Assembly: GCA_037447655.1 (NCBI GenBank)
Contig: JBBHKE010001386.1
Coordinates: 90,585-154,584, forward strand
Origin: Zygnema cylindricum
Taxonomy: Eukaryota; Streptophyta; Zygnematophyceae; Zygnematales; Zygnemataceae
DNA: 64,000 bases
Reading direction: 5' to 3'
The number at the start of each line of letters is the position of its first letter. The stretch's first letter is position 1. A model generated the notes under the pieces. It saw nothing but the letters and a program-made list of their open reading frames with translations, did no database searches and was not told the origin of the DNA. A program made the translations under genes and the position numbers. This document shows positions 4,965 through 50,259 of this stretch, piece by piece.

Positions 4965-5215
4965 GTGTTTTAGTAGTTAAGAGATATAATTATAAAGAGT
5001 GGAGAGTAGAGGAAAACACTTTATTAAGAAGGGTTCAGCCACGAGGGCAAGAGACCAAGCTAATGTTATGTAGACAAAAGCTTCTTCTAATTTAAAATTT
5101 ATCCTTATGTGAGTGCTTTCCAATGTGGATGTGTATTTTCCAATGTGTGAAATGTGTGGTTGAAATTGATTGAAGTAATGGGATTTTTTGAGAGGTTAGA
5201 AATCCTATTATATAT
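4965..5215 (+). repeat. Possible LTR or TRIM end next to a tRNA-Met-type primer site
   Basis: TGGTATCA at about 5216 matches the start of the usual plant copia primer site (3' end of initiator tRNA-Met), but the following bases diverge. The preceding ~250 bp has LTR-like words such as repeated CCAATGTG. I could not find the partner LTR, so this is weak. Confidence 0.25.
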
Positions 5216-5674
5216 GGTATCAAGTTTTGGTTAAAAACTAAAGAGAAGTTTGCTCACTCGAATATCGAATGTTGTGACCGGTGATGGTGCTCTAACCTGT
5301 GTCGGTAGAACCACAATGTAAAGTGGTAGGGGATTAGAGGGATACTGAGTGATCACACTGCCAGCGGCCGCTGGTTAGATGTGGGGCGTGCTCAGGTCCT
5401 AAAGATTAAGGCGGGGTGGGCAGTAAAGCCACCGCTGGAGCTCAATCCAATTACCTAGAGGCCAAACAAACTTGCCTTCTCCTAACAATGATTCATGTGT
5501 AGAGGGAGGGCTTAAAGCCACGAAAGGTGAGGATGTGAGGATTAGAGAACAAACGATCCCGATACAGTGAGAAATGGGAAATTTTCTGATGGTGAAGAAG
5601 GAAAGTGGAGCACTTTACTTCTTCAAGAGCAAAGGAGTCCAAAAATGACTTACACCTTTTCAAACCCTAAATTG

Positions 5675-5776
5675 TTACCTTTGAGAGCTTTTCAATTTTG
5701 CTGTTGCAAAATTTATGGTTGAACCTTACCTTTAAGAGCTTTCAATTTTGCTCTTGCAAAATTTGTGGGGAAATTG
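5675..5776. repeat. Two-copy 51-bp tandem repeat
   Basis: Two adjacent near-identical units, starting at 5675 and 5726, each carry TTACCTTT, then AGAGCTTT, CAATTTTGCT and TTGCAAAATTT. Non-coding. Confidence 0.65.
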
Positions 5777-6019
5777 TTACCTTTTTCATCAATGTTTAGG
5801 AAATTCAAGAAGTGAATTTGCACTAACTTACTTTCAATATCTTATTGATTTCTCAGATTTTGATCTTTTTCAAAAGATTTGTTAAGGAGAACAAGCCTTG
5901 GATTGGAGCAATCAAAGGACTTCAAACCTGTAGCAAATTTCTTTGGGAAATTATATTCTATCTTTTTTTTACTCGATTTCATTTGTGTGATAATGGCAAA
6001 TTCTGCATAAAAACGTGAA

Positions 6020-6295
6020 ATGGAAAATGCCTTAAATATTTTGAAGAAACGTAGTGTGAAATTGGTCAAAAGATTTAACAAACATGCTGCTGCTGTGGAT
6101 GAAACAATTTCAAAGTTGAAAAGTGAATTAAAGGATGTTAAGGAAAATGGAAATGTTTCAAATCAAAAATTGGATAAGCTAATTAATTTTATTCACACCA
6201 AAAATGATGTTAATGACCAAAAGGGTGAGAGTAGTAAGAGAAATGCCAGTTTTAAGGAAGATAATCGCGATAGACCTAAGAGGATAAGGGCGTGA
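6020..6295 (+). CDS. 91-codon orphan ORF, Lys/Asn-rich, coiled-coil-like
   Basis: ATG at 6020, TGA at 6293-6295. Rich in Lys, Asn, Glu and Asp, with heptad-like Leu/Ile/Val spacing over residues ~10-60 and a basic tail (RDRPKRIRA). I do not recognise a family. It could be a truncated gag or the N-terminus of a lost gene. Its AT-rich composition is like the flank and unlike the DNA that starts at its last codons, so it probably marks the left side of an insertion junction. Confidence 0.3.
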   Translation: MENALNILKKRSVKLVKRFNKHAAAVDETISKLKSELKDVKENGNVSNQKLDKLINFIHTKNDVNDQKGESSKRNASFKEDNRDRPKRIRA

Positions 6296-7705
6296 CAGTG
6301 GTGGACACGTCTCACTTCCTGTCCAAACTTCACAACAGTGAGTACCCGAGCTTTGCGCTTGAGATGCTTGCATTATCCGTGGGCGTGCCTGGCAAAAAGG
6401 GGCACCCCTCGATGCTCATTGCTCTTGATGATTGCGAGACTGATGTGACAAAGTTGATCGAGTACAATGTGCATGATGCATGGCTCCATCTGCAGGTGGC
6501 ATTGAGGACCAGGTGTGTGGAAGAGATATCAATGATGTGCGGAGTGTACAAGTCTCCCATCAATGGTGTGACACGATTCATCAGTGGCACGCTTGTATGT
6601 TCCATGAGTGCATCGTACGCCTTGTCCAGAGGCATGTTGATTGATTGGTCGGAGGAGCAGTACATGGGCCAGTTCAGAGGCGCGCACGTCCAGACGCCAG
6701 TGCCTGGCTTTCACGAGCAGGTGTCGGTAGCAGACTTTGCATCCATATATCCGAGCATTATCATACGTGCCAACATCTCATGCGAGACAGTATATGTGAT
6801 AATCGAGGAGAAGCACAGAGCTGCTGTCATGCGTGAGTACGACTTGGATGAGCCCTGCCCTCCCACTTGGCTCAGCTTGTACTACGATGCATGCAAGATT
6901 GTGGCAATCACTGATGGCGTACTCGGAGTGGTAGACAAGACGCGACCAGGCATCGCTAGTGACATCGTGGCTAGTCTCATCGCCACGAGAAGACTGCGGG
7001 CTGACAAGAATGACTCAGTCGGATGGGCCTTGAAGGTTGGAACGAATAGTTACTACGGGGCCTTCGGGAGGGAGATGTCAGGACTGTCATGCAGGTTCGC
7101 GCCTTCACTGGTCACGGCTATCGACAGGCTGCTTGTCATCTCAGTCGTCAATCATGCCCGTGCTTGCAAGTACGAAGTCGTGTACGGCGAGAGTGATTTA
7201 GTGTTCGTCAAGCCGCTCCCTGATTGCACCACATCATTCCAGCAGCTGATACTCCTACCATGCCAGCACTGCGGGTACTCCATTCAGTACTGTGAAGCTT
7301 GAGGTGGACAAGCACTACCATCAGCTCATCATGCTCAAGCCGAAGTTGTACTATGGCGAGGGCGAGAAGTCTGGGTGCCTTGTCATTGACAGGAAGGGGA
7401 TGGCATCCACGAGGCCTGATAGACTAGACATTGCACGCACGGCACTTGACGACACGTGCAGGCTCGTGTGTGAACACGGCCCGGTTGCAGCCGTGCCACA
7501 TGTGGCAGATCTGCTGTTCAGTAGTGTCAAGTCTAACATAAGGGCAGTGGTGCCAGTCATTAAGTGCATGGAAGAAGTGAGGTCCGACTCTGCCATCATG
7601 CTCATGTACCGCGGCAGGTCAGGTAAGTGGGTGATGATTAACAAGTCGAAGCACAGTGGGCGTGTGGACGTGCTGCCGAGCGTGGAGTATGTGTGCACAA
7701 CATGA
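6292..7705 (+). pseudogene. Family-B DNA polymerase fragment, virus-like, frameshifted
   Basis: The first part (6292-7302) shows an Exo III-like YNVHDAWLHL, motif A DFASIYPSII, the helix before motif B (IVASLIATRRL), motif B KVGTNSYYG and a motif C position reading YGESDLVFVK. The second part (frame of 7292-7705) carries the LEVDKHY and KPKLYYG segments and the KGM...RPDRLDIAR palm/thumb region. The reading frame changes between about 7220 and 7290, so at least one indel breaks the gene. There is no ATG at the left end (a stop lies just upstream at 6277-6279), so the N-terminal half including Exo I is missing. Motif C has Glu where the first catalytic Asp is expected. It does not resemble host replicative polymerases closely; large DNA viruses or viral-like replicons are the likely source. 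Confidence 0.8.
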
Positions 7706-7809
7706 CAAGCGTAGTGAATCCAGTGCTGCATGCATGTCGCATGCCTGAATTTGACAAGTTCGTGGAGTTCAAGCAGAACCGAGTGACCAATATTGATGAG
7801 TTGTTGTAA
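7702..7809 (+). CDS. 35-codon ORF overlapping the polymerase stop (ATGA), unknown
   Basis: The ATG at 7702 overlaps the TGA at 7703-7705 of the polymerase frame; it stops at TAA 7807-7809. The peptide holds EFDKFVEFKQNR. It may be a separate small gene in a compact viral layout, or the true C-terminus of the polymerase displaced by a second frameshift. No family recognised. Confidence 0.3.
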   Translation: MTSVVNPVLHACRMPEFDKFVEFKQNRVTNIDELL

Positions 7810-7829
7810 AAACTTCATCCCTTCACACA

Positions 7830-9545
7830 ATGGACAACTATCAGAGTGACCACGTGCATGAGTCTCTCGGCTCCTCGCAAGCAGGCCTGAGTGATGTGGA
7901 GACGGTCGAGTTGTCGAATGGCCAGTTGGGCTCGGAGGTGAGGAGATTGCTGGCAAAGTATGAGTGGACGAAGGAGTCAGTGTTGCCGGACTGTCTCGAG
8001 TCAGTGCTCGCACTACGCATGGCACACACTGACTTCTTCAACTCCAAGCTTGGAGTGTATCACTCGTTCTAGCTGGAGAAGGAGCCGGAGTACAGACTGC
8101 CAGCAGAGAGGAATCGAGCGTGCATGCCTCGCATGTTCCCTCTCGTGCTGGGCTATCCGATCAGTGTCGAAGGCACATTGGTCACAGTGTGCAATGCAGG
8201 CACCAGTGGGGCAGACGGAATGTACGAGCTGCTTGATTCCATGCAGAGATCGCAGTCGGTGTGGATCCCACTCTGCACGGAACTCATCAGTCTCGACACC
8301 AGTTGTGAGGACGTGAGGCGACTCGCTAGTTGCTACACTGACGTACCACTGCACGCATTCAACATCAGCGCAGTGCATGAGTTGTCGGGTTGTAGTGCCA
8401 GTCGGGACCTGTGGGGCAAGGTGTATGACGAACTGTCCCATGGTGCAAGGAAGGCAGGCATCAATGGTGTTGTTCGTGACAACACTGTGATTGACATCCG
8501 AGCCTATGAGAGTTGGAGAGAGAAAGAAGATAACACTCGTGACGTCACTGCCAGGATGTCAAAGGATGAGTGGGACGGCTTCATTGACTGCACGTACACG
8601 CCTGCTGGCATTGAAGCAAGTCGTATTCGATCACTCAGTCACGGCTGCATGTATCGCATCTGCACTCCTCGCACACTCAGTGAGGCATGCAGGATTGTGA
8701 GGATTGCACATGAGGGCCAGTGCAAGGCGCATGCATCCTCGTGGCTGTTCCACTTCGCAGGCTTGACAATGACAATGCACACCAGTGCCAGTGCTGCACG
8801 TACCATTGCGCATGAGACATTAGGCATGACACGCAGGGACGCACCCACCATGCATGTGTTCTCCAGTGAGAGAGTGGTCAATCTGGCCATCACTTCAGGC
8901 CAGCTTGTCAGGCCAGTCAATGTGATGCAAGTGATGACGAGTGCGATGATGGATGCTTGCAAGATGGTCGACTCACTCACCTCCTCGCGTGATGACTTGT
9001 GGTATGTATGCACAGGCATGACTCGAGTAGTACCACCAGTCTTGCATCAGGTGAGGACACTCACACTCCTGTGCTCGTACCTGCTCATGGACGAGCCGCC
9101 TCGTCCACTGTTGGGTTCATCACTAGCAGTGCAGGCAGTGTGCAAACCAAGAGTCGAGCTGACATCAAGTGTGACTCCCCTGTCGAGCTTCCTCCCAGTG
9201 GTGCGCACTCCACTGATGCATGAGGTGTGCAAGCAGCTGGACGAGCATGACTCACTGAATATACTAGGCGTCCCACTGGTGGTCGTGTTTGCGAACATGA
9301 AGCACAACTATGAGGACGCGGTGATAGTAAGCCAACGGGTCAATGATGATTGCTTGTTCAGTCATACGGGGGTGGTCTATCATGATGTGCCATACGGTAC
9401 GCCTAGACTGAAACCATGCCAGGTGCTGGGTGATGAGGATGGATGGTGGAGGCCAGGCGGGCAGGGGACAGTGCTGAAAGTCTCCACGTCGACAATGTCC
9501 CAAAGATTGTACAGCGTGCGGTTTGACGTCTCAATTTGCAGGTGA
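7830..9545 (+). pseudogene. RPB2-like (second-largest) DNA-directed RNA polymerase subunit, truncated, internal amber
   Basis: The frame opens with ATG 7830 and is interrupted by an in-frame TAG at 8070-8072. It then stays open through the next ATG (8124) to 9545. Recognisable RPB2 landmarks in order: a segment like the GR..RPL region (ITSGQLVRPV), a PRPLLGSSLAVQAV segment matching the SPRN...QAMG region, HNYEDAVIVS (the NQEDS..MN signature of RPB2), CLFSHTGVVYHD (GLF...) and DGWWRPGG (the DGL..PG signature). The reading ends just before the region where GDKF.SRHGQKG is expected, so the catalytic C-terminal third is missing. It is far too divergent for a host RPB2. Same strand and composition as the DNA polymerase fragment upstream. 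The assignment rests on spaced motifs read by eye. Confidence 0.7.
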
Positions 9546-9647
9546 GTTTAAGTTTCGCATAATTTTGTGTATCACATCACCTGTCACTATATCGTACACG
9601 TCTACGTGAGTCACCTTTGTAAAGTAACAATTTTTTTCGTTCACAAC

Positions 9648-10092
9648 CGAATGCTTTGAAAACTGTACGGAGAATCTTCGCTAAAAAACAAAGTAACAAG
9701 ACTAAGTTTCGGTTACATGCGAAAGTACCCTAAGTGTCAATGACTCAAATCCATCCGTACCAAGCCATCGTTTTTGACATTTTTTTATGTTATATTTTAG
9801 ATGATTGTTTCGTCAAAATTACAAAAAAAAACGAACTTTACATTTTTTTACGTTCGATTCTAGTTGTTTTTGATTGGTTATTCGTTTATGGGTTACCATT
9901 TTAGAAATTTTGTACAGTACGGATGAATCATTCGAGATGCGACTTCATGTTTTTTCAAAGTCGGATTTCTGCATTCCGAAAAGGGTTCCCGAAAAAGAAG
10001 ATGACTTAGGGTATTTTCGCATGTAACCGAAACTTAGTCTTGTTACTTTGTTTTTTAGCGAAGATTCTCCGTACAATTTTCAGAGCATTCGT
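9648..10092. mobile_element. Inverted-repeat element with ~88-bp arms
   Basis: 9648-9735 and 10001-10090 are reverse complements with only a few mismatches; key words are GGAGAATCTTCGC, CAAAGTAACAAGACTAAG and TTACATGCGAAA. Similarity continues more weakly outward to about 9560 and 10190. The central ~265 bp is AT-rich and codes for nothing. Fold-back transposon or MITE-like. It lies immediately downstream of the truncated RPB2-like gene. Confidence 0.75.
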
Positions 10093-10119
10093 ATGTAAAG
10101 AAATGAAATCGTAACTTTA

Positions 10120-10275
10120 AATTGTGACGGATGTAGACGTGGGTGTAATTTGTGACGATTGTACACGAGTACAAAACTCGCGACAATCGATGACGTTTAC
10201 AAAATAGAGACGGTTGTAGACGTCTACCTACTTGTGACATTGTAGATGTTTAGGGTTTGTGACATTTTGACGTCA
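10120..10275. repeat. Degenerate TTGTGAC / TGTAGACGT repeats
   Basis: Words such as TTGTGACG, TTGTAGACGT and ACGTCTAC recur several times. Probably part of, or adjacent to, the inverted-repeat element. Confidence 0.4.
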
Positions 10276-11500
10276 CGCGTACTTATGATAGCGTCGACGT
10301 CACTAATTCCAAAACATTCCGCCATGGTTTCCCGATTTTGTTTTTTCGTCCGTTCTCACTCTACTTGCCATCAAATTAAGCTAAAAGACAGCCAAAACAA
10401 ATATTTTTCATAGATCTTTCATTTGATACCTTTCTTGCATTTTTTGATTGCAAGAATTGTGAGATAGACGCGTTAGGTGGAGAGGGAGAGAAAGAGAGGC
10501 GCTTTCACCATCTTCGCTTTTGCGAAATGGCGTCAGTTGGTCGAAACCCCCCTCCACGGGCCCTGTACGGAAAAAAGCGCACGGAAAAAAGTCACGCATA
10601 GGTTGGAAACGTGCAGTGGGTTTTTTCTTTGGTACTCCGCGGACAAAAATTGTCAAAAAATCTGACATGTGCAACAACATCTTCCTATTCGCTCTTCTTT
10701 TTGGACTATATTTAAAATCACCTCGCGAGGTGATTTGACGCAAAGTTTGAACGTGTGATGAAAGGACGCGAAAATGGGTCGAAATGCGCTAAACGACAAA
10801 TTGCATCGCGCTAGTCGACAAAGTTACGTACGTCTAAAGTTTCACTGTAATGTAACTTGTACGGTGCTAATTTCAATTTTTTGGTACGGCTGCGGATTTT
10901 CTCGTTTTTTTCTAAGTTATGAAGGAAAACGACACGAAATAACTGTAACTTTACCACATGCGAAAATACCCTTACCACAGTTGTCAAGTTTTGACGCACT
11001 TGATCGTACGTTTTTGTCCGTCGCTACGCTCCAAATCGTATATTTTATCTGTCGCTACGCTCCAAAAAGGTTGACAGCCGAGCAGTCGGTCAGTTTGGCG
11101 CCTCTGTTTTCGTTTTTTTGCGAAATGAATGGTACGGGATCATTCATTTCCTCATCTCATTCATCATCCATTTCCGGTGTGAATGCAGCAAATTGGGATG
11201 CTCTTCAACGTAGTACGAAGAATCTTCACTACAGTCCAAAATACTTTATCACAGTACCGATTACATGGGGACACCCCCTAAGTGCACGCTTCTCCAGTAT
11301 GGACGCAAATACCTCCTGAAAGGCGAAACGATATAGCCCGACCCCGGCCTCCCGTAAGACATCTAGATTCTGAGGTTAAACATAAATAATTGAATTTCTA
11401 CCGGTTCAATTATCTTCTTGAAGCCATCGTCGTAATGGCTAATGATGCTTTCGTTTATAACCTCCATGTCAAACTTCGCGTGCGAGGATGACATTCGGAC
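10276..11500. other. Gene-free stretch upstream of the LYR gene
   Basis: Contains a perfect 22-bp palindrome at 10715-10736 and a short direct repeat of GTCGCTACGCTCCAAA at about 11022-11066. A segment at ~10957-10976 (ACATGCGAAAATACCCTTAC) resembles the arm of the element at 9648. The open frames have no recognisable family. The promoter of the downstream genes presumably lies at the right end. Confidence 0.4.
10715..10736. repeat. Perfect 22-bp palindrome centred on CGCG
   Basis: The left half AAATCACCTCG is exactly complementary to the right half CGAGGTGATTT with no spacer. Confidence 0.9.
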
Positions 11501-11869: not shown

Positions 11870-14800
11870 ATGGCAACAAAGGCGTCCGGCCAGAGTAAGC
11901 TTGCTCGTTTAGTGGTCCCTACATTGGAGAAGATTATTAAGAATGCATCTTGGAGGAAGCATTCGAAGCTAGTACAGGAATGTAAGAATGTCATTGAGTG
12001 GTTTCAGAAGAGGCCTTTGCCTCTTCGTGCAGATCTGTCTAAGGCAGCATCTGCAAATAATGTCTCTCAAGGACCTAGTAAAGTGGAAACTGGCAGTCTT
12101 CAAAGTCCTACAAACGAATCAATCCAAAGCGTCCCTTCGACGCCTAAAGCCATTGTAGAAGTCCCAGCTGGCAGCAATGGGACCACACCGCTAACTCAGC
12201 AGGTCGAGGAAACTTTTGAGAAGGTCCATGAATCTGAACAAGTGGCCGCTGACCAATCCAGTACAGAGACTGTCCCAGAGACTGTTCCTACAGAGCCATT
12301 ACCTGTTCCTACTGAGCCATTACCTGTTCCTACTGAGCCATTACCTGTTCCGGAAAAGGAAGCGACTGCATTATCAAAAGAGGAGGAGAAGAACGGTCTT
12401 CTAGAAAGCTCTCCCTCTCAGGATCAGGACATTAATGCCACCGGTAATGTTGCTGAAGTATCAGCGAGGGAGGAATCACAGAAAGCTGTTGAAGTTGTAC
12501 CTGAATTGCCTGTTTTGTATGATGAAGGAAATCAACCCTATTCGAACGCAGATGCTGAGTTCATCTTGCACCCTTTGCATTCTGCCTGTGAAACCCTTTC
12601 TGCGAAGGTCGTGGAACCTGCGCTAGACTGTTTTCAGAAAATGATTGCCCATGGTCATCTCAGAGGAGAGATGGATCAGGGGCAATCTTTAGTAGAGAGC
12701 AGGCCTCTTTTACGGGTAATGGATTCGGTCTGCCGGTGCTATGACATGGCTGACGAGTCGGTGGAACTTCTTGTGCTTAAAACGTTGTTATCTGCCATAA
12801 CAGCAACTTCTGTACGTGTCCATGGAGAATGTCTATTGAAGGCTGTCCGTACTTGCTACAACATTTTCCTTGGGAGCAAAGTGCCAGTGAACCAGACTAC
12901 TGCTAAAGCGTCCTTGACTCAAATGCTAGTCATTGTATTTCGGAGAATGGAGGCAGATTCATCGACAGTGCCTGTACAGCCTATTGTCGTTGCTGATTTG
13001 ATGGAGCCCGCGGAGAGGTCGTCCTCTGATCAAAATGTGACTCAGTTTGTGCAAAGTTTTATTACTAAAGTAGTACAAGATATCGAAGTTGTATTTACTC
13101 CACCGCCACCTTTGAAGACTATGAAGCATGACGGGGCGTTTGAGACAACAGCAAGTGAAACCAAAGATTCCACTGATTTGTTGGGCGAAACTGATAAAGA
13201 TATGCTGGATGCAAAATATTGGGAAATAAATATGTATAAGACTGCAATGGAGAAAAAAGAAGCCACACCCATTCTTGCCTTGGGTGATATAGATATGGAA
13301 AAAGAAGGTGATTACGATGTTCAAATCACAAACAAGCTCCGGCGGGATGCTTTTCTTGTTTTTCGTGCGCTGTGCAAATTGTCAATGAAAAATCCTCCAC
13401 AAGAAGGTGTTGTAGATCCATTCGCTGTCAGGGGGAAAATTGTGGCTCTGGAGCTCCTTAAAATTGTGCTTGAGAATGCTGGAGCAGTTTTTCGAACAAA
13501 TGAGAGGTGTGTTGGCAACTTGTACTCTGGACCAGTAACTTTTTTAGAGGTTTCAGGATTCTTGGATTGTATGAATTTGAGCAGCTTTGGGGAATTTTGG
13601 GTTGTTTACATTTTTTTGGTATTTTGTCAAATAGTTTTTGACTTTTGTGTGGGTGCCCTCTGGTTTTTTTGGTTTCCAGGTTCTAACTTTTATGGTCGAG
13701 AAATACCTAATCATTCTAAAAAAGTAAAAGCATAACAAAAGATATTTGAATGGATAAGTCTTGAAACTTCTTGTTCTCTGGAGTGAGGTTCTGACATGGG
13801 ATATCATCTTAAACTGTCACATATGGGCCTTATTAGACTGTAAAATACAAACATTTTTTCCCTCTTGCACTAACAATTTTCTTCTTGTGGTTGCAGGTTC
13901 ATAGGTGCTATTAAACAGTACCTTTGCTTATCCCTCCTAAAAAACTCGGCGTCCTCCTTAATGGCCGTTTTTCAGCTTTCATGTTCAATCTTTATGAGTC
14001 TCGTATCACGCTTTCGTGCGGGACTGAAAGCAGAAATTGGTGTTTTCTTTCCCATGATTGTATTGCGTGGCCTTGAAAATGTGCCCCACGCCAATTTTCA
14101 GCAGAAAATGATTGTTTTACGGTTCTTGGAGAAGCTCTGTGTGGACCCTCAAATCCTGGTGGATATTTTTGTAAACTATGACTGTGATGTCGACTCACAA
14201 GACATTTTCGGAAGGTCCATTTCTCCTCCTAGCATGCTCTATCACTTAGAAGTTTGTTTAGACTATGCATTTTGAATAATCTTCTCCTTATTTTCCTGTC
14301 ATCTTGCACTATGGCTTTTGTCTTTTATGGATGAAAAGGTTTAAGATGGAACCCAGTTTTGTTGACCATCCTTCAGCAAAGATGGGAAGAGTAGAGATGG
14401 CGAGGAAGGCAAGGTTTTGATGTTTGGTTGGGCCTTGTTTCTAGTGGATGATGGACTAAACCCACTTTCTACCCTCTTCTGTACATCAGATGCGTCAAGG
14501 GTCAGATTTAATATGTTTTTTTTGAAAGCTTTTAAGCTTTTTTATCTGTTCTTTGAGATAGAAATCCACTCATCTAACTTGAATATTCTGCATTTTACAC
14601 AAAACAGGACGGTAAATGGATTGTTGAAGACTGCTCAAGGAGTATCTCCAGGCTCGGAAAGCACATTGAATCCTGCCCAGGATACTCAACTGAGATTGGC
14701 AGCTATAAAGTGTTTGGTGGGGGTACTGCGTTCTATGGGCAATTGGACCAACCGTCAAATGCGTATCTCCGACAGCATTTCTATGAAGGGAGCAGATGGA

Positions 14801-45897: not shown

Positions 45898-46266
45898 TGA
45901 AACTCTGAGACCTCCATTGGCCCTCAGAGTATGCAGATCCAAAAGAAGCTAATCTAGATAGTGCCGACTCCAAGTTAATATAAACCCAAGTGACTGACCC
46001 CTTGACAGTCAGAACCCCAATATAGATTCACCCCTGTGAAATAACACTTTCTGTGTGCTCAGTTCCACCACAGAATGCAAAGTTAGAATATGAGATTTGG
46101 ACACATTCACCCACTTTGACTTTCCCTTATAAATACAGCCACCCTGGCAGACAAAAACTCTGACCGACTACACCCCTGTGTAGCCTGGACTCCCCTGAGT
46201 CCGCAGCAAAAAGAATCACTGAAAATGGTCAAGTAAATTGATAGTTATGGCTGATCAAAGTTTGCC

Positions 46267-46428
46267 ATTTATACAAGGTGCTCTCTGGGAGAGGCAGCTG
46301 CCTACCCAAAATTTTCTAAGTCCTAAACTCTCTCTAAAACTCTATCTACTGAAGTACGGCACCAATCAAATTACTGTGTCGTACAGAAAAGTACAGGTGC
46401 CGGTGTACTTTCTGTACGGCCATTGTAC
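46267..46428 (-). promoter_or_regulatory. LTR promoter of D: GTAC array and TATA box (3' LTR copy)
   Basis: Six GTAC tetramers at 46354, 46381, 46391, 46405, 46414 and 46425 lie upstream (in minus orientation) of TATAAAT at 46273-46267. A CCAATCA word lies between the first two. The same layout recurs in the LTRs of B, C and E. GTAC is the core of SBP-box and copper-response sites in plants and green algae; binding here is inference. Confidence 0.55.
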
Positions 46429-46630
46429 GACATGGCCAAAATGTCGACACGTGTCAAATCAGGATTAGTTCCTGTAATCTCCGGAATTCCCGTAGTCCAA
46501 TGTTATCACGCCACGTGTCACCTGACGTGACAAAGACCGTAAAACGCCAAAAGTACCTTTTCCGTGATCGCGGCGCTTATCGTAGCCGTCCGATCAAAAC
46601 CGGCTATAATCCTAGCCGCTGAAATTCGAC

Positions 46631-46723
46631 GCGCGGTATTTGTTTCGCTATCGAAACAAATGCGCGGTATTTGTTTCGCTGTCGAAACAAATGCGCGGTA
46701 TTTGTTTCGCTATCGAAACAAAT
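46631..46723. repeat. Three 31-bp tandem hairpins in D LTR (left copy)
   Basis: Three units, each TTTGTTTCG-loop-CGAAACAAA with GCGCGGTA between, period 31 bp. Same array in the right LTR at 49747-49839. Confidence 0.92.
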
Positions 46724-46910
46724 GCGCAGTATCCGTTCTGCCCCCCCATTCCGTACTCCGTACTAAATTAAACTGTTTCTATGTACTAAATATCTATTTA
46801 GCCGTTAAACGGATTAATCTACATTTAACAATTTATATATTTGTCAAACCCTATATATCGTAATATCTGTTCTAGACATAACGGCTAGAGCTAACGGCTA
46901 TTGCACGTTT

Positions 46911-46949
46911 GACGGACGGTAGGTACCAGGATCAATTCCTGGGTCCGTC
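46911..46949. repeat. Hairpin with B-box-like loop in D LTR (left copy)
   Basis: GACGGAC pairs with GTCCGTC, and CCAGG pairs with CCTGG around ATCAATT; GGATCAATTCC resembles a B box. Position equals that of the tRNA-like module of C and E. Right copy at 50027-50065. Confidence 0.55.
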
Positions 46950-47161
46950 AAATATATTTTTTGGTAAACATACTTATTATCTATTCCTGTCTCTCTGGAA
47001 AGCTTAGGCAGCCATGGCTCTAGCTCCCTCTCCAGCCTTCAGTGACTACGACAAGTGTGGGGGCTTGGAGAAGGGAGTCAGAGGCAGACTGCCTCTACTC
47101 TTTTCTATCTAACAAAGACCTAGAAAATACCCAAATATCAACACTCCCCTTATTTTCTAGT

Positions 47162-49033
47162 CTACTTCCTTTCAACTCTTACAAACAAAATAAACAAAAC
47201 ACTCCCTCCCCTTTTCCTTTTTCTTTTCTTTTTTCTTTTATATAACTTAAGAAATTTGCTCTCGTATTTAAAACACTGCATTAGATGAAATGAAATTATA
47301 ATTGCATCACACATTTCATTTAGCATCCCACTTATCATAAATCCGAGCAAAGATTTTATCCACCTTATCTCTTTTCTATCCACACTAAATCCACTTTCCC
47401 TCTTGCAATTCAAACAACCAGCCCCATCTCCAATCTGCAACACACACCCTGAGGCTAACCCTTTTACAGGCACACCTTCATAAATACCATCACTCCCTTT
47501 AGTGAGGTCAAACCCATTACCCCCAAAACATGAACTTTCCTCACTCTCTCCCATGGATTTCTTTTCACTTTCACTTTCTAAATTTATTCCCAATAAACAT
47601 TTCTCCTCCCCTAAACCTTTCATTAAGTATTCCTCTTCTTCTTTATCCTTTAAAACTCCTAGTTTCACTTCTCCCCTTTCCTCGGAATCCGTTGAAGTCT
47701 CCCTTTCCGACCAGTTTTCTGGTTCCCTATTATATATAAAATTATCCTCATTAATTTTATCTTTCCCTTTTTCACTTATGGGTCCTAGAACTGACTTTCT
47801 CATTTCTAAGTCATACACTCTACACTCCTCGACATCCTCAAGTACCTCCTCTCTCTTTACTTCCCTTATACCTCCAAAAGCACACTGTTGCCTTCGTGCA
47901 ATTACTGTGTGCTTTTCTTTCTTCCCCATACTACTAATCTGGAGAAGCTCTAAAATATCTTCATCCTCTTTCTCCTCTTCCCCTTCTTCCTCCTCATCCA
48001 CATTCCAACTTCTAAGTTTTTCCAAACAAGGGCATTCTTCCATATAATGACCAGGTTCCCTACAAAAGAAGCAAACCCCTTTTTTCAAAGATCCCGTGTC
48101 TTTTCTTCTCCCTCTTTTTCCACCAAAGTTCCGATAAGGTTTACCTTTGTCTTTCTTCCTCTCATCACGCTTCCGCTCGTCACCACCGTTCCTCTCATCA
48201 CGCTTCCGCCAATCACCACCAGCTGAAAAAGCATTGACCCTGTCCTTTCCCCTTCGAAGCTCCAAAGTGCTTTCCCTCACAAGAATTATCCCCATGGTAA
48301 AGCTCCAAGTCCATGAGGAGCCATCCCTTGCCTGCATACGATAAATAATGCTTTCGTACTCACTTGGGAGTTTCATAAGTAGTGTATTAATCTTACCCTC
48401 CTCAGATTCTACACATCCCGCACTAGCTAGCTCAACATATAACGCAGCAATATCATTGCAAAACTCTATCATGCTACCGCCTTTATAAACATAGGCATCT
48501 ATTTCCTGTTTTACTAATTGCTGCCTCTGAATAGTCTCACTCTTATAAATCTGAATTAGTACTTCCCATATCTCTGAAGACTTGGTTAGACTTAAAAGAG
48601 TGATAGCTATCGACTTACACACATATCTAAGTATGAGATGTTTTGCTATAGTGTTTTTGTATTCCCATATTTTTCTGTCATTTTCCTCAGTTTTAATCCC
48701 TACATGTGGTACCATAGCTGAGAGCCTAGCTCCCCTCACCATAGGTGTCCCTTTTTCCTTCTCCCCTATTTCCCCATCCACGGAAAGATTCTTCCCTTCA
48801 CCTTCCGTTGCATCTGAGCTCCGGATGATATTCTGGGCAGCCTCAGATGAATCTCCATAGTAAGCTCCTCCAAAGCCAGGTGGCGGACATCTCACTTGTC
48901 CCGAAACGATTCCCCATAAGTGCTTCTCAAAAAGCAATCCCGCCATTGTAAACTCCCAATAAGTGAAGTCTGTTCCATCGAACATAGGCACCCTAGATGG
49001 TGGGCCCATAACCTGAAACTCTGAGACCTCCAT
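47162..49033 (-). CDS. Element D single ORF: gag with condensed pol remnants, 623 aa
   Basis: Starts at the ATG 49031-49033, 20 bp inside the 5' LTR, and reads through the primer site (QVMGPPSRVPMFDGTDF). The capsid-like gag spans residues ~1-260 (WEFTMAGLLFEKHLWGIVSG, YVYKGGSMIEFCND, NTLLMKLPSEYESIIYRMQ). A basic stretch and a CCHC knuckle follow (CFFCREPGHYMEEC, residues ~321-334). Residues ~385-580 are shrunken pieces of pol in order: CAFGGIREV (before the protease site, but DSGAS is gone), VYDLEMRKSVLGPI (INT tail), KGSDGIYEG (RT end), GDGAGCLNC and IRWIKSLLG (RNase H). All are in one frame, ending in a Lys/Arg-rich tail. No catalytic residues survive. Gag probably still forms particles. 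Confidence 0.85.
   Translation of the reverse strand: MEVSEFQVMGPPSRVPMFDGTDFTYWEFTMAGLLFEKHLWGIVSGQVRCPPPGFGGAYYGDSSEAAQNIIRSSDATEGEGKNLSVDGEIGEKEKGTPMVRGARLSAMVPHVGIKTEENDRKIWEYKNTIAKHLILRYVCKSIAITLLSLTKSSEIWEVLIQIYKSETIQRQQLVKQEIDAYVYKGGSMIEFCNDIAALYVELASAGCVESEEGKINTLLMKLPSEYESIIYRMQARDGSSWTWSFTMGIILVRESTLELRRGKDRVNAFSAGGDWRKRDERNGGDERKRDERKKDKGKPYRNFGGKRGRRKDTGSLKKGVCFFCREPGHYMEECPCLEKLRSWNVDEEEEGEEEKEDEDILELLQISSMGKKEKHTVIARRQQCAFGGIREVKREEVLEDVEECRVYDLEMRKSVLGPISEKGKDKINEDNFIYNREPENWSERETSTDSEERGEVKLGVLKDKEEEEYLMKGLGEEKCLLGINLESESEKKSMGESEESSCFGGNGFDLTKGSDGIYEGVPVKGLASGCVLQIGDGAGCLNCKRESGFSVDRKEIRWIKSLLGFMISGMLNEMCDAIIISFHLMQCFKYESKFLKLYKRKKKRKRKRGGSVLFILFVRVERK
48999..49013 (-). promoter_or_regulatory. 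Primer binding site of element D, matching the anticodon arm of initiator tRNA-Met
   Basis: On minus: GGTTATGGGCCCACC, 15 nt directly after the LTR end. It is complementary to GGTGGGCCCATAACC, the anticodon arm (CAU) of plant initiator tRNA-Met as I know it. Drosophila copia uses a 15-nt site in the same tRNA region, with a cleaved half-tRNA as primer. Confidence 0.85.
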
Positions 49034-50259
49034 TGGCCCTCAGAGTATGCAGATCCAAAAGAAGCTAATCTAGATAGTGCCGACTCCAAGTTAATATAAA
49101 CCCAAGTGACTGACCCCTTGACAGTCAGAACCCCAATATAGATTCACCCCTGTGAAATAACACTTTCTGTGTGCTCAGTTCCACCACAGAATGCAAAGTT
49201 AGAATATGAGATTTGGACACATTCACCCACTTTGACTTTCCCTTATAAATACAGCCACCCTGGCAGACAAAAACTCTGACCGACTACACCCCTGTGTAGC
49301 CTGGACTCCCCTGAGTCCGCAGCAAAAAGAATCACTGAAAATGGTCAAGTAAATTGATAGTTATGGCTGATCAAAGTTTGCCATTTATACAAGGTGCTCT
49401 CTGGGAGAGGCAGCTGCCTACCCAAAATTTTCTAAGTCCTAAACTCTCTCTAAAACTCTATCTACTGAAGTACGGCACCAATCAAATTACTGTGTCGTAC
49501 AGAAAAGTACAGGTGCCGGTGTACTTTCTGTACGGCCATTGTACGACATGGCCAAAATGTCGACACGTGTCAAATCAGGATTAGTTCCTGTAATCTCCGG
49601 AATTCCCGTAGTCCAATGTTATCACGCCACGTGTCACCTGACGTGACAAAGACCGTAAAACGCCAAAAGTACCTTTTCCGTGATCGCGGCGCTTATCGTA
49701 GCCGTCCGATCAAAACCGGCTATAATCCTAGCCGCTGAAATTCGACGCGCGGTATTTGTTTCGCTATCGAAACAAATGCGCGGTATTTGTTTCGCTGTCG
49801 AAACAAATGCGCGGTATTTGTTTCGCTATCGAAACAAATGCGCAGTATCCGTTCTGCCCCCCCATTCCGTACTCCGTACTAAATTAAACTGTTTCTATGT
49901 ACTAAATATCTATTTAGCCGTTAAACGGATTAATCTACATTTAACAATTTATATATTTGTCAAACCCTATATATCGTAATATCTGTTCTAGACATAACGG
50001 CTAGAGCTAACAGCTATTGCACGTTTGACGGACGGTAGGTACCAGGATCAATTCCTGGGTCCGTCAAATATATTTTTTGGTAAACATACTTATTATCTAT
50101 TCCTGTCTCTCTGGAAAGCTTAGGCAGCCATGGCTCTAGCTCCCTCTCCAGCCTTCAGTGACTACGACAAGTGTGGGGGCTTGGAGAAGGGAGTCAGAGG
50201 CAGACTGCCTCTACTCTTTTCTATCTAACAAAGACCTAGAAAATACCCAAATATCAACA
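49014..50259 (-). repeat. 5' LTR of element D (1246 bp)
   Basis: Identical in length to the left copy. One difference noticed: CTAACAGCTATT here versus CTAACGGCTATT in the left copy. GTAC array at 49470-49544, TATA box at 49383-49389, hairpin triplet at 49747-49839. The last 20 bp on minus contain the gag ATG. Confidence 0.95.

Follow-up and report, generated by a model that had tools for sequence, protein, structure and literature searches.

A decayed DNA polymerase and RPB2-like gene segment in the genome of Zygnema cylindricum, probably a remnant of a large double-stranded DNA virus

The DNA analysed here is a stretch of 64,000 nucleotides from Zygnema cylindricum (the window; C1036:90585-154584), and relatives of its genes were sought in the whole assembly of 352.8 Mb and 2,689 contigs. 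Inserted in the window is a segment of ~3.18 kb, which carries on its plus strand a family-B DNA polymerase (PolB) gene followed by a gene for an RPB2-like RNA polymerase subunit. Both genes are truncated and frame-broken pseudogenes. We consider the segment very probably a dead genome fragment, truncated at both ends, of a large double-stranded DNA (dsDNA) virus that possessed its own PolB and a two-subunit RNA polymerase. An initial annotation, made from the window alone, had proposed a fragment of a large DNA virus or of a viral-like replicon at this place, and further copies in the genome, an RPB1-like gene on one of the related blocks, and the distance of the proteins from their cellular versions now support that proposal.

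The segment is marked by two plus-strand open reading frames (ORFs), 6292-7302 (336 amino acids) and 8124-9545 (473 amino acids). The guanine-plus-cytosine content (GC) is 0.53-0.54 in the kilobases between 7 and 9 kb, as against 0.30-0.47 in the other kilobases of the window, and the flanks stand at 0.38 (5-6 kb) and 0.41 (10-11 kb). The description of two intron-free genes on one strand, with a composition unlike that of their surroundings (GC ~0.53 within host DNA of ~0.40), is therefore accurate.

The first ORF is a 5'-truncated polymerase piece (6292-7302), comprising the end of the exonuclease domain and the region of palm motifs A, B, and C. In a Pfam scan it matches PF00136 with 65.3 bits (E = 6.1e-18), in agreement with the initial annotation, and the motifs quoted there are present. 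The gene does not end at 7302: the PF00136 signal resumes in an overlapping frame (7292-7705; profile positions 264-330, E = 0.0013), and the polymerase continues in other frames to ~7809. This broken remainder (7292-7809) is collinear with a second copy of the gene on contig C2312, relative to which the window frame shifts twice. The GTG at 6292 lies at the left junction and is not a start codon, and most of the exonuclease half is absent. The C2312 polymerase, in contrast to the window copy, is a single open frame of 531 codons, ~32 of which are non-viral and lie upstream; it matches PF00136 at E = 5.3e-28, and the first window piece is 84% identical to it in amino acids. Catalytic motif C deviates from the family consensus in both copies.

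Among known structures in the PDB, the C2312 polymerase finds Pol delta and archaeal PolB as its best matches (E ~1e-15). The profiles of archaeal PolB1 (Sulfolobus type; E = 1.6e-21) and of eukaryotic Pol delta are the best or near-best for this polymerase, which nevertheless is a member of neither: against human Pol delta it scores 60 bits in an alignment of 363 residues, and against Sulfolobus PolB1 about the same. A host nuclear polymerase gene was rejected as the source on these low scores to cellular versions. The divergence of both proteins from cellular counterparts, previously noted from their motifs, is thus apparent from the 60 bits of the C2312 polymerase to Pol delta, and from the lack of any eukaryotic RPB2 chain in the PDB at E <= 1 for the RPB2-like protein. 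Predicted structural models of the two proteins (mean pLDDT, the predicted local distance difference test, of 34 for PolB and 32 for RPB2) are too low in confidence for use. Elsewhere in the genome, contig C1485 holds a family-B polymerase gene, apparently with host Pol alpha exons as judged by eye, amid very long simple repeats.

The RPB2-like gene lies directly behind PolB in both the window and the C2312 copies. Its reading frame starts at 7830 and is cut short by a premature stop near 8070, giving a start piece (7830-8072) in the same frame as the second ORF; the main piece (8124-9467) is 3'-truncated, contains the motif HNYEDAVIVS, and is 78-80% identical in amino acids to the C2312 copy. 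The ATG at 8124, earlier taken as the start codon, cannot serve as such, as the frame opens upstream and the collinear match to C2312 begins at window position 7980. The window ORF matches no Pfam family at E <= 0.1 and no NCBIfam family. Its best PDB match is a bacterial RNA polymerase beta subunit (E = 0.03), aligned on HNYEDAVIVS; taken by itself, the window gives weak grounds for the RPB2 call. The C2312 copy extends past the end of the window copy into RPB2 domain 6 (PF00562, 21.0 bits, E = 2.1e-4, below the cut-off of 23.4) and matches archaeal RpoB at E = 0.0037. We keep the name RPB2 because two copies show motifs and profile matches in the order expected of that subunit, and because an RPB1-like gene is present on the same block.

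The C2312 block is homologous to window positions 6316-9472, with the same gene order and 84-88% nucleotide identity, and has a GC of 0.51-0.56 outside its long terminal repeat (LTR) portion. It runs on beyond the right end of the window segment, where a search for RPB1, suggested by the initial annotation, was successful: an ORF of 494 codons matches PF00623 above the cut-off (34.8 bits, E = 2.5e-8), archaeal RpoA' at E = 1.1e-5, and, with E-values of 0.0009-0.002, archaeal Rpo1 and plant Pol V. The sequence of its metal-binding motif is NLDFDGHE. Subunits of the LEF-8/LEF-9 type (Naldaviricetes) were considered and rejected, as neither the RPB2 nor the RPB1 pieces matched a LEF family in Pfam. 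Five ORFs that follow RPB2 on C2312 (L007 4249-7776) were without a match in Pfam at E < 0.1 and in PHROG. On the same contig, an open frame of 854 codons (L021 492-3053; C2312:90492-93053) with a GC of 0.57 and no Pfam match could be a further viral piece.

Two host elements interrupt the C2312 block. An LTR-like insertion of 1,060 bp lies inside the RPB2 gene, flanked by a 5-bp duplication (CATGC, identified by eye), and a copia-like insertion of 6.45 kb, which resembles the copia sequence of the window, separates RPB1 from its neighbouring ORFs. The viral DNA was therefore already part of host DNA when these elements inserted. A genome search with the RPB1-like protein found two places, i.e., C2312 itself and contig C2168 (72% amino acid identity over 100 residues), and the latter keeps RPB1 and the neighbouring ORFs in the same arrangement without the copia-like insertion.

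At both ends the window segment is joined to host repeats, which differ from each other. To the left, a host repeat (5200-6291, plus strand) that includes a 91-amino-acid ORF (6020-6295) is 81% identical to C2312:80435-81474 over 1,075 alignment columns (window 5200-6262); it ends at about 6292-6296 as judged by eye, and viral coding sequence starts there. At this edge the window reads TVVDTSH and a distant polymerase on contig C666 reads TVVDSYH. The C666 copy reaches further upstream, and the left edge is therefore not the end of the viral genome. A frame upstream of the C666 polymerase (L035 3102-3689, minus strand) resembles by eye the first exonuclease motif of family-B polymerases, so that some of the exonuclease domain may survive in this copy.

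To the right, the segment ends earlier than the ORF. Searched against the genome, the second ORF gave 26 matches, 20 of which were limited to its last ~27 residues (~447-473), a dispersed host repeat; the viral segment therefore ends at ~9467 rather than 9545, and the last ~78 nucleotides are host transposon. The end part of this dispersed element (9465-9735, plus strand) is 94-95.5% identical to copies on C435 and C2152 over ~265 bp, and viral and element sequence have 3 bp in common at the junction. A second copy in inverse orientation (10004-10974, minus strand), of which pieces 10005-10141 and 10482-10974 match the opposite strand of C435 and C2152, forms with the first an inverted repeat of 87% identity (9597-9735/10004-10141). 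An intron at the segment end was rejected, as the donor-like GT after 9542 lies inside the dispersed repeat. The stretch 10008-10559 lies within this inverted copy, and a further copy of the element, on contig C571 (L010 4147-4685), is found ~1.1 kb from a PolB fragment (L010 5811-6056).

The divergence between the window and C2312 copies records past purifying selection. Over 938 codons in four in-frame blocks, the synonymous divergence (dS) is 0.38 and the nonsynonymous divergence (dN) 0.08, giving a dN/dS of 0.214 (bootstrap 0.167-0.263), and codon positions one, two, and three differ by 10, 8, and 21%. Most of this divergence therefore arose under constraint, in replicating ancestors before integration, which argues for separate integrations rather than one duplicated insert; two or more integrations would be the simple reading. 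Between C2168 and C2312, dN/dS values without bootstrap are 0.35, 0.31, and 0.19 over 99, 112, and 118 codons, respectively. Contig C2194 shares 98% identity with C2312 across 203 bp and differs at six positions over 68 codons, an uninformative ratio of 1.5; some copies, C2194 among them, may be later duplicates. We note that, of the 230 transitions that distinguish the window copy from that on C2312, 61 are in a CpG context, and that window 6296-9470 and the C2312 viral block have a TpG/CpA excess of 1.6 versus 1.2 in host DNA, which may reflect methylation-driven decay or viral composition.

More distant relatives lie elsewhere in the genome. The window polymerase was found at four places, namely the window, C2312, C666 (41% identity over 127 residues; GC 0.43-0.50), and C571 (38% over 71 residues, with one stop, in AT-rich surroundings), and short RPB2 pieces occur on C2194 and C1006. 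The ORF beside the C666 polymerase has a Walker-like sequence, GPQGGEGKS, seen by eye; on its own, it hits only PF00910 (E = 0.036) and one PHROG (E = 0.0062). Among the 135 matches listed for it (of 360 candidates), its core is covered only by itself and by an ORF on contig C2116 (34%; GC 0.51-0.56), while the other listed matches start at residue 236 or later, mostly in a repeat at the 3' end of the ORF. The C2116 ORF matches the P4-type primase/helicase family TIGR01613 (E = 1.9e-8), but its 33.5 bits fall far short of the whole-protein cut-off, which is 108.7. A profile search of the PDB with the pair gave nothing useful. C2116 thus holds a candidate D5-type primase-helicase below the cut-off, with a relative beside the distant C666 polymerase, and unlinked to the window copy. 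On C2116 it is followed by two GC-rich ORFs for which Pfam shows no clear relative (L037 5708-6781).

These observations suggest the following course of events. A virus that coded for an RNA/DNA-primed family-B DNA polymerase and a two-subunit RNA polymerase, and presumably formed virions, would have had relatives that repeatedly entered the nuclei of host ancestors. Fragments of viral DNA would have been inserted into broken host DNA rich in repeats through end joining, a process of which short microhomologies at the junctions are typical, and frame breaks, stop codons, and host retrotransposons would afterwards have eroded them. PolB, RPB1, RPB2, and a D5-like helicase belong to the core genes of Nucleocytoviricota, and mirusviruses share much of this core. 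The features of this kind found here are a family-B PolB, an RPB1-like gene above the cut-off, and a sub-threshold RPB2; the virus could belong to Nucleocytoviricota, to the mirusviruses, or to an unnamed lineage.

Several points weigh against a viral origin or against parts of it. The identity of RPB2 is based on the order of its motifs and on scores below threshold: a PDB search at E <= 1 with the C2312 piece returned no chain of an RNA polymerase, and a profile built from both copies places antibody chains (E = 0.25 and 0.33) above bacterial beta subunits (0.54 and 0.71). The major capsid family PF04451 had no match in this genome, in a search that covered this one capsid family and whose positive control was also empty. 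Scans of a collection of viral contigs gave no relative; generic delta-type and nucleocytoplasmic large DNA virus (NCLDV) PolB motifs were silent there as well, and its silence is therefore not evidence. (A single pattern match in that collection, L011, looks by eye like a phage contig.) The C571 piece lacks the elevated GC. At the left, the window (6292-6316) and C2312 (L006 ~9097) copies begin at points no more than ~25 bp apart, with different flanks, a near-coincidence not expected of independent random breakage.

The alternative that survives best, and which we regard as unlikely, is an intranuclear element, either an autonomous replicon or a mobile element of very large size, that carried PolB and an RNA polymerase and never formed virions. 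Such a replicon would be consistent with the lack of a recognised gene of the one capsid family searched, with the several dispersed, related, and decayed copies, with a dN/dS well below 1, which fits any functioning replicon, and with the shared left edges. However, the right edges differ, as C2312 runs past the window end, and C666 runs past the left edge; furthermore, we know of no eukaryotic nuclear transposon with a two-subunit RNA polymerase.

Very improbable is DNA of a T4-like or jumbo bacteriophage, e.g., one of a plant-associated or organellar bacterium. Residues 2-174 of the window polymerase match phrog_262 (E = 4.9e-20), which we take to be the T4-type phage DNA polymerase, and a tblastn search found 1,068 phage records; the RPB1-like ORF matches the RNA polymerase family phrog_2987 (E = 8.6e-9), and the helicase matches the P4-family primase. 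Yet among the 20 phage matches listed the best has E = 1e-6 and identities are 22-25%, the best PDB matches of the C2312 polymerase are not from phage, and archaeal PolB1 and Pol delta score equally well or better. RPB1 is nearer to archaeal and eukaryotic than to bacterial subunits, and a phage would hardly be expected to integrate several times into eukaryotic nuclear DNA.

Insertion of a cytoplasmic linear (killer-type) plasmid, one of the sources that had initially been considered, has hardly any probability left. Such plasmids do carry a PolB and an RPB2-like protein. Protein-primed PolBs, however, have a separate Pfam model, whereas PF00136 is the sole Pfam family on this polymerase (at E <= 0.1 in the window and E <= 1 on C2312), and RPB1 is a separate ORF. 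Of the sources named at the outset, a large DNA virus is thus favoured and the linear plasmid disfavoured.

Equally little speaks for contamination or misassembly, i.e., foreign DNA joined to plant contigs: both window junctions do lie within host repeats, but the right one shares 3 bp where a repeat misassembly needs long identity, the genes are broken, and the separate C2312 copy holds LTR-type insertions, one with a target duplication. That host segmental duplication of a single old viral insert explains all copies is just as implausible. The near-identity of C2194 to C2312 fits duplication, but the 13% divergence between the window and C2312 is mostly at third positions, with a dN/dS of 0.21 where neutral decay would give ~1; the C2168 pieces range from 0.19 to 0.35, the C666 and C571 polymerases are only 41% and 38% identical, and edge alignments find no common host sequence beside the window and C2312 copies.

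The insert lies ~2.4 kb from a host gene of the BIG/Sec7 type, a guanine nucleotide exchange factor for ARF, an exon of which spans 11870-13735 on the plus strand (PF16213, E = 1.5e-34; PF12783, E = 4.7e-11); the start of the encoded protein presumably resembles plant BIG proteins. The window surroundings are copia-rich. At 45898-50259, two direct repeats of 1,246 bp, 99.92% identical, surround hardly anything but a copia-type gag ORF (47162-49033, minus strand) and appear to form a very young LTR element with no gene other than gag.

Algae are well known as hosts of large DNA viruses, land plants hardly at all. One survey (PMC5294986) reports NCLDV core genes in one of 110 land-plant genomes, that of Physcomitrium patens, and its table marks the genes as putative Pithoviridae; the moss insertions are credited to Maumus et al. 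2014 in PMC12142844. Like these, the Zygnema segment consists of fragmentary core genes of a large DNA virus within the nuclear genome of a plant; it differs, as far as the descriptions in those sources allow comparison, in the PolB-RPB2-RPB1 block and the several divergent copies. The giant endogenous viral elements of Cymbomonas (PMC10675990) and Euglena (PMC12455990) likewise comprise embedded viral DNA with many fragments, transposable element insertions, and non-host composition, whereas only short pieces are present here, with no capsid or packaging gene recognised (the capsid search being that of PF04451, with its empty control). No published report of this locus was found; subscription papers were mostly outside the scope of that search, so an earlier report is possible.

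Endogenous fragments of large DNA viruses in a plant-like genome are thus of a kind already known, and the lineage may be new. Tentatively, and at less than even confidence, the fragments might derive from an undescribed large-DNA-virus lineage with a small, strongly diverged RNA polymerase that repeatedly infected one land-plant lineage through its germ line, with at least two (possibly three) PolB lineages ~40% identical to that of the window. Because dN/dS between copies is low, the idea of repeated infection can be put to the test, and the several related, partly collinear fragments provide sequence with which to address the kinship of the virus, the date of its disappearance, and the route by which its DNA came into plant nuclei. 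If the undescribed lineage is real, giant-virus-like parasites peculiar to land plants existed in the past and may exist even now.

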